From Chitinophaga pinensis (GTDB taxonomy: Bacteria; Bacteroidota; Bacteroidia; Chitinophagales; Chitinophagaceae), in contig NZ_VOHS01000001.1 in the NCBI RefSeq assembly GCF_007896845.1, positions 1 to 64,000 on the forward strand: a stretch of DNA of 64,000 nucleotides, in the 5' to 3' direction. Positions within the stretch are counted from its first letter, which is position 1; every line of letters begins with the position of its first letter. Made by a program: the position numbers and the translations under genes. The notes under the pieces were generated by a model, which saw only the letters and a list, made by a program, of their open reading frames with translations, had not been told where the DNA came from and did not search any database. Of this stretch, positions 33,960 through 41,684 are shown one piece after another.

Positions 33960-34574
33960 TTATTGTTTCTTTATTCCTCTTACGAATATTTCCGTCAGCA
34001 ATTTCTGCTGTGCTACTATCTTTTCGAATCCTTCTTTATCTAATTCAACTATTGATTCCGGCATACAACTCATTCCTGCAAAACGGAGGCCTTCCATGGC
34101 ATCTTTATACAGTATGCCTATTTCCTCCGGATTGGCGACGTCAAATTCGCCGGTCTCAACTCCTTTCTTAACTACTTTGGTAAGCATTACATACTCTCTC
34201 GCTTCCACTGTCCTGACGATCTGCTGAATCTCTTCAGACTTATCATTGAGTATCTTAAACAGTTCCAGACGGCTGAAACGTTCTACGAACTGTATTTTAA
34301 TCGCGATCAGGTTGAAGAAGATCTCTTCAGACGTTATATCTGTTCTGTCGGCTTCTACCTCCAGCTCCTGAAAAAACGTTTCCCCGATTTTCATCAGCAC
34401 GGCATTATGCAATGTCTTTTTATCAGAAAAGTAGTAATACAGTGATGCCTTTGAACAACGCAGGTCATCTGCGATCTCATTCATAGTTGTTTTCCCTGCA
34501 CCATAGTGCATGAATCTTTTCAAAGCTGCCTCCAGGATTTTCTCCCGCATTTCATCTTTGTTCTCAGCAAGCAT
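33960..34574 (-). CDS. TetR-family transcriptional repressor (distal, first gene)
   Basis: A 204-residue TetR protein, first gene of the efflux unit, with an HTH (KILEAALKRFMHYGAGKTTM, then DDLRCSKASLYYYFSDKKTL) and a different C-terminal ligand domain from its neighbour. Its start is preceded by a -7 element (TATTTTTG, 34611-34604) that overlaps an AGTCAAAAA box, which suggests self-repression. Two unrelated TetR genes in tandem point to control of the pump by two signals. Confidence 0.92.
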   Translation of the reverse strand: MLAENKDEMREKILEAALKRFMHYGAGKTTMNEIADDLRCSKASLYYYFSDKKTLHNAVLMKIGETFFQELEVEADRTDITSEEIFFNLIAIKIQFVERFSRLELFKILNDKSEEIQQIVRTVEAREYVMLTKVVKKGVETGEFDVANPEEIGILYKDAMEGLRFAGMSCMPESIVELDKEGFEKIVAQQKLLTEIFVRGIKKQ

Positions 34575-34578
34575 TAAC

Positions 34579-34710
34579 TTTTTGACTTTTTTAGTTTCGG
34601 AGTCAAAAATAGTAAGAAATCGCAGAATAGTAAAACCTGTTTACCATTTAACAATTGATTAACTTTTTGACCTTAAAAGTCAGATAGTTGAAAAGTCAAA
34701 AAGTCAAAAA
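34579..34710. promoter_or_regulatory. Cluster of AGTCAAAAA boxes before the efflux operon
   Basis: The nonamer AGTCAAAAA or its complement TTTTTGACT occurs at 34579-34587 and 34601-34609 (inverted pair). Near matches follow at 34664-34672 and a double copy at 34694-34710 (AGTCAAAAAGTCAAAAA). The -7 element of the first tetR (34604-34611) overlaps a box. A further near match, GGTCAAAAA, is at 34769-34777. Likely operators for one of the TetR proteins. Confidence 0.6.
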
Positions 34711-34894
34711 TGCAGTTGATTGAAAATAAATTGCTTATAATAAGTCAATAAATCTAATTTCTTCGATTGGTCAAAAAATGTGGGATTAAAAAATTTTTTG
34801 AAGTAGAGGATAAGAGAACGCTGGAAAACCCGGAAACCGGGAAAAAGGTGTTTTGGGAGGCAGGGAAAGGAGAAGGTTGGATTGCTAATTTGGT

Positions 34895-34941
34895 GGTTTC
34901 AGATATATAGCAGGCTAAAGCATATTTTAAGATGATTGAGC
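34895..34941 (+). repeat. Degenerate half copy of the palindromic unit (left)
   Basis: Starts GGTTTCAGATATATAGCAGG and ends TTTTAAGATGATTGAGC, aligning without large gaps to the first ~47 bases of the unit at 34969. The second half is missing. Confidence 0.65.
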
Positions 34942-34968
34942 GGGGGAAGAGTGGGGCTGTTGCTGCCA

Positions 34969-35105
34969 TGGTTTCAGATACCTCGCAGACTGACGCCCGT
35001 TTTTAAGGCGATTGGGCTGTGGTTGCTGGGCGGGGCAATAGTAACTTAATGAACGTTAGCTGGATGCAGGGGACGGGCTAAGGTCTGCTCATGCATCTGA
35101 AACCA
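34969..35105 (+). repeat. Palindromic repeat unit 1
   Basis: 137 bp bounded by TGGTTTCAGAT and ATCTGAAACCA. Inside, GCAGAC pairs with GTCTGC and CCCG with CGGG. The core holds TTTTTAAGGCGATTGGGC and ACGTTAGCTGGATGCAG, shared with the other units. No reading frame. One copy to the next (35192) is exactly 223 bp. Confidence 0.85.
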
Positions 35106-35191
35106 CTGCCGGAAGAGCCTGTTGATTATTTAATTGTGGGATGGGTGAGATGGCTGAAAAAGAGGTAAGAATATGGGGGCTGCTTCTGCTA

Positions 35192-35330
35192 TGGTTTCAG
35201 ATACCTCGCAGACTGACGCCCGTTTTTAAGACGATTGGGCTGTGGTAGCCGGGCTGTGCAATAGTTACTTTAATGAACGTTAGCTGGATGCAGCGGGACG
35301 AGCGAAGGTCTGCTCAGGCATCTGAAACCA
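35192..35330 (+). repeat. Palindromic repeat unit 2
   Basis: 139 bp, same orientation as unit 1 and the same ends (TGGTTTCAGAT, ATCTGAAACCA). It is nearly identical in the first 50 bases and differs mainly in the loop. The segment after it (35331-35370) also resembles that after unit 1. Confidence 0.85.
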
Positions 35331-35408
35331 TTGCCGGAAGAGCCTGTTGGTTAATTAATTGTGAGATGAGTAATATGGCTAAAACGAGGGAAGCAGAGAT
35401 GTGGCATA

Positions 35409-35441
35409 TATAAAGCGTGTATAAAGCATGTATGAAGTATG
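35409..35441 (+). repeat. Three 11-bp tandem repeats
   Basis: TATAAAGCGTG, TATAAAGCATG and TATGAAGTATG follow one another without a gap, near the centre of the palindromic array. The function is unknown; a one-turn spacing suits protein binding. Confidence 0.55.
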
Positions 35442-35534
35442 TTAACTATTCCCCGATGGCACATTTAGCTCATCGTCCGGTATCCCAATTACCGGGACCT
35501 TCCTATTAATTAATCAACCGGCGCTTACAGCGAA

Positions 35535-35670
35535 GGTTTCATATACCTGTGCGGACCTTAGCCCGTCCCCTGCATCCAGCTAACGTACACCAATGCTCCC
35601 CCGTCTGGCCATACCACCACTGCCCAATCATCTTAAAAACGGGCGTCAGTCCGCACTGGTATATGAAACC
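35535..35670 (-). repeat. Palindromic repeat unit 3 (inverted)
   Basis: 136 bp, opposite orientation to units 1 and 2. The ends are GGTTTCATATACC and GGTATATGAAACC, perfect 13-bp arms. GTGCGGAC pairs with GTCCGCAC inside. Compared with units 1-2, base pairs have changed on both arms together (CAGAT/ATCTG to CATAT/ATATG; GCAGAC/GTCTGC to GCGGAC/GTCCGC). Confidence 0.85.
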
Positions 35671-35701
35671 GCAGCAGAAGCAGCCCAACACACTTCCTTC
35701 C

Positions 35702-35747
35702 CCCAATCGCCTTAAAAACGAACTTCATCCACTAAACACCCAAAACC
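35702..35747 (-). repeat. Degenerate half copy of the palindromic unit (right)
   Basis: CCCAATCGCCTTAAAAACG at the left end is the complement of the unit's conserved TTTTTAAGGCGATTGGG. The terminal arm is diverged. It faces inward, mirroring the half copy at 34895. Confidence 0.6.
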
Positions 35748-35772
35748 ACCGCAGAAGGACTCCCCCTTACAA

Positions 35773-35853
35773 CATAGTCTGACTATACTCATGCTACGTT
35801 AATGCTACCTTTAAAACGTAGCATTAACGTAGCATGAGTATAGTCAGACTATG
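35773..35853. repeat. Perfect 36-bp inverted repeat (long hairpin)
   Basis: The left arm 35773-35808 begins CATAGTCTGACTATACTC and ends ACGTTAATGCTAC. The right arm 35818-35853 is its exact complement and the 9-base loop is CTTTAAAAC. Each arm also holds the small palindrome ATAGTCTGACTAT and a direct repeat of ATGCTAC. No gene overlaps it. It may be a transcription stop, a DNA structure site or a relic of a mobile element. Confidence 0.85.
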
Positions 35854-36202
35854 GATTAACCAGTCAATCTCCCTTCACTCAGGTACCATTCAAACCACTT
35901 ACACCCAAAAAACACAAATCTTTTTCGGATAAACCTAAAACATTTCGATCCTGATAAGGGTTATCTAAAAGCTGCCAGCCGGGAGCACCGGAAGCCTGCA
36001 TCAATACAACAGGCTTCACTTGCAGCTATTTTTCCCTGCGAATTTCACTTTCAGCAGGGGGGTAAACAGGTCTTTTCCCTTCTGACCGGATGGTCTCATT
36101 TTTCACGCTTTTAGCCGACACATTTTACACCTACATCTCGGAACGCCTTGACTGGCATGGATCGGGCATTTGTTTTGCCTTACATAGGTAAAATCAAACG
36201 CT
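35854..36202. other. Gap without a gene, upstream of the secreted protein
   Basis: About 350 bp with no supported reading frame. It holds the leader and promoter region of the gene at 36203. A possible -7-like TACATAGG stretch lies at 36181-36188, weak. Nothing else recognised. Confidence 0.4.
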
Positions 36203-36694
36203 ATGAAAAAGTTAATGCTTCTGCTGATTGCCGTAACCGGATTTACAGCTACAACCATGGCCCAGATCAATGTTAGTATCAATATAGGAAGACAGCCGGT
36301 ATGGGGTCCTGTTGGTTATGACCACGTGGATTACTACTATCTGCCCGACATAGAATGTTATTACGATGTACCGGCCCAGGTATATGTTTATAGAAATGGC
36401 AATAATTGGGTAAGATCAAGAGCACTACCCCCAAGGTATGCAAACTTCGATGTTTATCATGCGCACAAAGTAGTGATCAATGGGGTTAACAGACCTTATA
36501 TGACGCATGACAAATATCGTCAGCAGTATTACAACTACAGGGGTAAACATGACCAGATAGCGATCCGTGACAGCAGAGAGGAGAAATACTGGGCTAACAA
36601 GTACCACCCGAATCACGGCCAGTGGAAGAAAGATCACCGTGACGACCATAATGGCCGTGCTGACCGTGGGGGACGTGGCCGGGACAGACACTAA
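36203..36694 (+). CDS. Secreted protein of unknown function, basic C-terminus
   Basis: A 163-residue exported protein with signal peptide MKKLMLLLIAVTGFTATTMA. The mature part starts INVSINIGRQPVWGPVGYD and has an aromatic, tyrosine-rich core (YYYLPDIECYYDVPAQVYVY) of a kind often seen in Chitinophagaceae hypothetical proteins. The tail from ~130 is rich in His, Asp, Arg and Gly and may be disordered or bind metal or polyanions. It stands alone, with a terminator shared with the aminotransferase gene. Confidence 0.75.
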   Translation: MKKLMLLLIAVTGFTATTMAQINVSINIGRQPVWGPVGYDHVDYYYLPDIECYYDVPAQVYVYRNGNNWVRSRALPPRYANFDVYHAHKVVINGVNRPYMTHDKYRQQYYNYRGKHDQIAIRDSREEKYWANKYHPNHGQWKKDHRDDHNGRADRGGRGRDRH

Positions 36695-41459: not shown

Positions 41460-41497
41460 GGAATACTAGTTTAACAATTTTAACTACCTTTAAGGCA

Positions 41498-41590
41498 CTT
41501 TAGGGGTGTTTCCCGGGAACTAAAAAAGACCGGGAAGCTGAGATGAGACCCTCAGACCTGATGCAGTTCATACTGCCGTAGGAAAAAGTT
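41498..41590 (+). promoter_or_regulatory. TPP riboswitch (THI element)
   Basis: The conserved parts of the thiamine pyrophosphate riboswitch appear in order: AGGGGTG, then GCTGAGATGAGACCC, then CAGACCTGATGCAG and finally CTGCCGTAGGAAA. It lies 95 bases before thiS and should turn off the thiamine operon when TPP is abundant. A weak -7 (TACCTTTA, 41485-41492) precedes it. Confidence 0.93.
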
Positions 41591-41684
41591 ACCTGACCCG
41601 ATATATATTATCACAGGTAAACATAGCTGAATTCTCCATCATTCCATCCTTAAAGTTTATTGTTCAACTAAATTCCTTGCAAAC

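Follow-up and report, generated by a model that had tools for sequence, protein, structure and literature searches.

The window analysed here is a 64,000-nt stretch of the Chitinophaga pinensis genome (G000; assembly of 7.1 Mb in 96 contigs). At its TetR locus, the window holds an array of three ~160-nt units in the order ++-, with degenerate partial copies on both outer sides. The features are given below by position, strand and description. The E-values refer to two covariance models, R1 and R2, which are described further on.

34894..34949, + strand: degenerate, partial copy of the 5' half, outside the array (BLAST match of 74% to query 13-69 at E 0.16, weak by itself; repeat family D3)
34958..35116, + strand: unit 1, type I (R1 E 1.6e-33; R2 E 8.9e-13)
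35117..35156, + strand: 3' flank of unit 1, with weak conservation across ten type I copies (ungapped 10-nt bins 0.45, 0.37, 0.40, 0.36, then 0.24)
35181..35341, + strand: unit 2, type I (R1 E 1.8e-33; R2 E 2.6e-10)
35342..35522, no strand: centre between the inward-facing arms, including the 3' flank of unit 2 and that of unit 3 (from unit layout and flank conservation)
35523..35682, - strand: unit 3, type I, inverted (R1 E 1.6e-34; R2 E 3.1e-12 for 35524-35682)
35701..35723, - strand: degenerate 5'-half fragment outside the array at its opposite end (matches the 5' core with 3 mismatches)

Two direct units and one inverted unit were found where the original prediction had placed them, and units 1 and 2 are 88-91% alike. 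The conservation that it claimed for two core segments was confirmed by counting. Core motif 1 occurs 3 times in the window at up to 2 mismatches (0.02 expected), and core motif 2 occurs 4 times at up to 3 mismatches (0.00 expected). Two compensatory changes had also been named. In an alignment of 17 copies, the change from G-C to T-A (CAGAT/CATAT) is seen in 1 of the 17 rows, and the change from A-T to G-C (GCAGAC/GCGGAC) in 2 of them.

A long near-perfect hairpin lies beside the array at 35772-35854, and similar ones lie at L033:8246-8310, L035:7703-7791 and L101:5975-6059. The scan covered unit-bearing loci only. The four hairpins of this genome, which lie next to units or in the space between them, have arms of 32-41 bp with CTACGTTARTGCTACGTTT-like or close sequence. 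G075 and G076 carry long hairpins at the orthologous TetR locus whose sequence, judged by eye, is very different. A TPP riboswitch is also present in the window, at 41492-41601.

When one window unit was used as a BLAST query, close relatives were found elsewhere in the same genome. Covariance model R1 was built from 17 copies, and the R1 search returned further copies together with a second, diverged layer. Further sequence types were read from this layer, including type II (TGGCTGACGCTCTTTGAAG ... CTTCAAAGACCTAAGGCCA) and type III (GGGCTGACGCCC ... GGGCTAAGGCCC). An alignment of 21 units of mixed types (A2) was discarded since its 3' arm was misplaced by MAFFT; alignment A3 keeps 11 of these units. 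Model R2 was built without any type I sequence, from 11 units that are of type III or closest to it. In the window's own genome, R2 gave 59 matches at E<=0.01 (58 full length and 1 fragment), including all three window units. The recovery of type I units by a model free of type I sequence indicates that the types form one superfamily. In their own genome, the window units are thus members of a superfamily that numbers 58 copies or more and spans several sequence types sharing a single fold.

Matches are ~150-180 nt long, and conserved flanking sequence extends ~40-60 nt past the 3' end and at most ~20 nt past the 5' end (7, 7 and 10 copies compared). At E<=1e-6, 77 matches were counted in G127, 88 in G076 and 40 in G094, numbers in which both strands of one unit may be included. 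The family units are intergenic, multi-copy, non-coding, shorter than 200 bp and folded as a long stem-loop, as is characteristic of small mobile sequences of the MITE/RU kind. Gene positions were taken from a mechanical ORF list, in which units are in some cases overlapped by ORFs of 90-190 aa. The original prediction had proposed a covariance-model search as its check, and this search revealed many further copies in the own genome and its relatives. An absence of other copies and of covariation, which was to have counted against it, was not found; copies are many, and covariation grows with them.

The shared fold is composed of an outer stem, an asymmetric internal loop, an inner stem and a G/T-rich apical part. 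Covariation was measured on alignment A4, which holds 124 matches, the last 13 rows being 12 reverse-strand matches and one fragment. Among the 122 distinct rows, two-sided change was seen at 28 of 30 pairs and 92.4% of cells were paired; A4 is fitted to the model structure, so pairing is favoured in these values. None of 500 shuffles on any of five measures, nor any slide, attained them. The unfitted 17-copy MAFFT alignment A1 points in the same direction with smaller numbers: 6 pairs with two-sided change (reached in 7/500 shuffles) and 20 cells (0/500), while the count of further pair types was not significant (82/500). The selection on pairing that had been predicted from three units is therefore supported by both the fitted and the unfitted alignment.

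The remaining structural counts were made on the first 111 rows of A4, 109 of them distinct. Among 30 unit pairs of at least 90% identity, paired cells show 28 one-sided differences and 1 two-sided difference. Between units of less than 50% identity, 10792 differences are one-sided and 19342 two-sided, a ratio of 0.56 from unit pairs that are not independent. Near-identical units thus differ on one side and distant ones on both, which indicates stepwise compensation and argues against template switching in one step.

The internal loop between P1 and P2 carries CTG on its 5' side and TAAGG on its 3' side, the latter conserved position by position in 105 (T), 102 (A), 109 (A), 105 (G) and 109 (G) of 109 units. 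The UAA/GAN internal-loop motif has UAA opposite GAN. UAA is present in 98 of the 109 units, and UAA together with GAN in 64, so the loop agrees with this motif only in part and was not assigned to it.

The family is patchy within Chitinophaga. R2 at E<=1e-4 matched 15 of 79 Chitinophaga genomes, nine of them with at least 30 matches. R1 matched 13 of the 79 and added one genome beyond R2 (G125). Type I at E<1e-20 was seen with R1 only in G000, G127 and G094 of the same 79. The 12 genomes with the closest TetR orthologues (at least 80% identity, own genome included) all have R2 matches, among them the closely related G060 (TetR 94%) with 4; G100 has 2. In 244 genomes drawn from the bacterial family Chitinophagaceae, R2 matched the own genome and one from another genus (G301), the latter with two weak matches; with R1, the own genome was the sole match among 60 genomes of this bacterial family. 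No match was found in phages with one type III unit as the query, in plasmids with the window array and one type III unit, or in viral contigs with one exact 22-mer.

Sites with and without a unit were then compared. The TetR locus has the layout ++- in G000, +-- in G127 and +- in G094. A TetR match was present in 73 genomes, and among the 30 loci examined these three carry full units; in the remaining 27, flanks of 1.5 kb contain no full unit and a single weak partial match (L185, E 0.0021). Alignment of G000 with G060 places ~1.2 kb holding the array against ~500 bp of unrelated DNA, so the window locus is not a clean empty site. Unit-free sites in relatives were found at two other loci. At L113, the flanking matches of G060, G100 and G075 are directly adjacent, just past a terminator-like hairpin with a T-run (by eye), and the inserts, with unit and repeat-rich flanks, measure ~560-580 bp in G000, ~690 bp in G094 and ~370-400 bp in G127. 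At L107, a unit is present in G000 and G127 and a remnant lacking the middle in G094; where the unit is absent, the flanking matches are separated by 53 bp (G060) or ~110 bp (G100). The junctions at both loci lie within T-runs and low-complexity DNA, and no target-site duplication was found there. At least nine unit sites are common to G000, G127 and G094, so recent movement is not demonstrated, and orthologous loci differ in the number of arms. Short tandem repeats on the 3' sides of units (L113 6080-6362, L107 5372-5820) also differ between close relatives.

Opposite-strand units within clusters face inward, which is a new observation. The polarity count covered the 230 units listed (76 in G127, 60 in G000, 57 in G076 and 37 in G094), with orthologous loci counted repeatedly. 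Among these listed units, neighbours within 10 kb in the four genomes are ++ in 38 cases, -- in 35, +- in 34 and -+ in none; G000 alone has 9 inward and 0 outward clusters. Exceptions occur in G074 and G075, which are outside this count, where a stretch of ~7.0 and 7.2 kb with genes separates a minus unit from a plus unit that belongs to the following cluster (L158, L145). At one locus, a single minus unit in G000 corresponds to plus units in five relatives. The centres between arms range from 78 to 3271 bp and, at non-orthologous loci, share little beyond a hairpin and short repeats (E<=1e-4); many loci are one-armed. Of 14 partial 5' portions, 13 are found 5' of a full unit and share its strand. 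Nine partial 3' halves were found, 5 on the 3' side (4 in L145 and 1 in L034) and 4 on the 5' side (all in L152), which indicates that some L152 copies are internally shortened and are not 5' halves only. In five genomes, inward units flank an operon of an Ada-type regulator, a DNA glycosylase and an O6-methylguanine methyltransferase (L142, L143, L144, L145 and L158; genes identified in L142).

Taken together, the units are probably non-autonomous, MITE-like palindrome copies whose fold is needed for spreading by a putative trans-acting enzyme. The dispersed copies, the preserved fold, the varying arm numbers, the truncated outer 5' portions and the inward arms support this reading. A mobile miniature element, one of the three natures originally suggested, is the best fit to the unit-free sites in relatives and the lineage-specific copy numbers. 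The element would comprise the ~150-180-nt imperfect palindrome and the ~40-60 nt of conserved 3' flank, located between genes. Its folded strand, as ssDNA or RNA, may be recognised by the trans-acting enzyme during spread, and the fold would then be selected at the level of the spreading copies. Resident copies may drift, decay and multiply locally via replication slippage. Counted against the MITE-like reading, neither a mobilising gene nor a target-site duplication nor an autonomous relative was found, and the conserved 3' sequence continues beyond the inverted repeat, in contrast to a MITE bounded by its TIRs. This reading also gives no account of the inward polarity. Among 45 hand-picked neighbouring ORFs, no transposase, integrase or reverse transcriptase is seen in the 25 of 104 families listed, and within that listing the neighbours look ordinary.

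Known repeats resemble the units in several respects. The enterobacterial YPAL/RU-2 and ERIC/RU-1 are described as intergenic elements of ~100-200 bp without a protein, with a long stem-loop and unproven mobilisation (PMC2229807, PMC2759123). YPAL further shares with the Chitinophaga units its internal inverted repeats and its insertion beside dyad symmetry, as described in PMC2229807. The Chitinophaga units differ in belonging to another phylum, in their divergent types with one fold and in the inward polarity of their clusters, and no target-site duplication was found for them. A MITE with a minisatellite in Porphyromonas gingivalis, also of the Bacteroidota, carries tandem repeats and is likened here by its description, not by sequence or fold (PMC4596501). 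REPIN/REP doublets with RAYT are similar in their dispersed palindromes, inverted pairs, tandem clusters and compensatory hairpin changes (PMC3116915, PMC3733652), the last reported for REPIN hairpins (PMC3116915). REPs are described as 20-40 bp long with GTAG/CGTC tags (PMC3116915, PMC3733652) and form both head-head (HH) and tail-tail (TT) dimers (PMC3733652), whereas the Chitinophaga units are ~160 nt each and show a single pair polarity within clusters. The REP-like nature with a tyrosine transposase, another of the original suggestions, was not borne out: Y1_Tnp (PF01797) at E<=1e-5 has 0 matches in G000, G127 and G094. The REP/RAYT system is therefore not supported, and it was rejected also on the length of the palindrome. 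In the genus, PF01797 is present in 4 of the 15 R2-positive genomes and in 12 of the other 64. A transposon with cargo was similarly rejected, as the genes scanned between arms code for ordinary proteins (an Ada-type regulator, glycosylase, methyltransferase and PhyH) or gave no match (2 of 10 proteins) and the centres have little in common across non-orthologous loci.

The third nature suggested, a structured RNA, is rather unlikely. The G-rich strand of a multi-copy ncRNA would be transcribed into a long rod whose internal loop binds a protein, and arrays would raise the dose. The strong covariation, the strand-asymmetric internal loop with its frequent UAA and the G/T-rich apical part are consistent with such an RNA, as is a G3+ quadruplex motif, seen in 18 of the 109 loops on the sense strand and in none on the antisense strand, with 4.2 in shuffles; the motif is enriched but confined to a minority of units, and a G-quadruplex was rejected as a general feature. 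However, G-U and A-C cells are similar in number (82 and 61 across helices 1-3 when one fixed T-G pair is set aside), which indicates that no strand is clearly favoured. Rfam gave no family at gathering score for the units in the whole window, and on 8 loci with type I, II and III copies (E<=1) only unrelated weak matches, none at gathering score. A match to mir-4796, at 45 bits against a cut-off of 90, sits on the neighbouring hairpin and not on a unit. Promoter- and terminator-like sites of E. coli-type consensus in window 34500-36210 are not above shuffles. The mere 4 matches in the closely related G060 and the copy without its middle at one locus also speak against an RNA gene.

An improbable extension of the mobile-element reading is a fold-recognised class with a structured head, a repeat-rich 3' side, tail-to-tail pairs in clusters, rapid splitting into types with one fold, and an undescribed enzyme. 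Such elements might be copied by way of RNA or ssDNA and would then be the bacterial equivalent of SINEs. Boundary or insulator elements, whose inward arms would block transcription or direct RNA processing on both sides of the centre in an orientation-dependent way, are very unlikely. They would accord with the 34 inward and 0 outward neighbours among the listed units, with an arrangement kept at orthologous loci though copy number changes, and with centres that hold a gene or the Ada repair operon; however, orientation to the flanking ORFs is not constant, centres vary widely in length and share little sequence, and many loci have one arm only. Little probability is likewise given to change without selection, in which palindrome-correcting template switching copies arm onto arm, since correction would yield two-sided differences at once and near-identical units are 28:1 one-sided, although the G075 and G076 hairpins are palindromic while unlike the window hairpin in sequence, and the two arms of L161 share variants (both by eye).

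For the MITE-like units, no description of such repeats in Chitinophaga was found in the literature searched. The family bears on the question of how short palindromes can be mobile in bacteria with no recognisable transposase. It offers divergent types with one fold, together with unit-free and decayed sites in relatives; some of the genomes concerned have no Y1 match, and the inward polarity rule within clusters constrains any mechanism of spreading. The two weak matches in the genome of another genus (L170, E 1.6e-5; L171, E 2.8e-5) form long hairpins with a similar G-rich apical part (TTGGGC...GGGC), and are possible distant relatives of the family.
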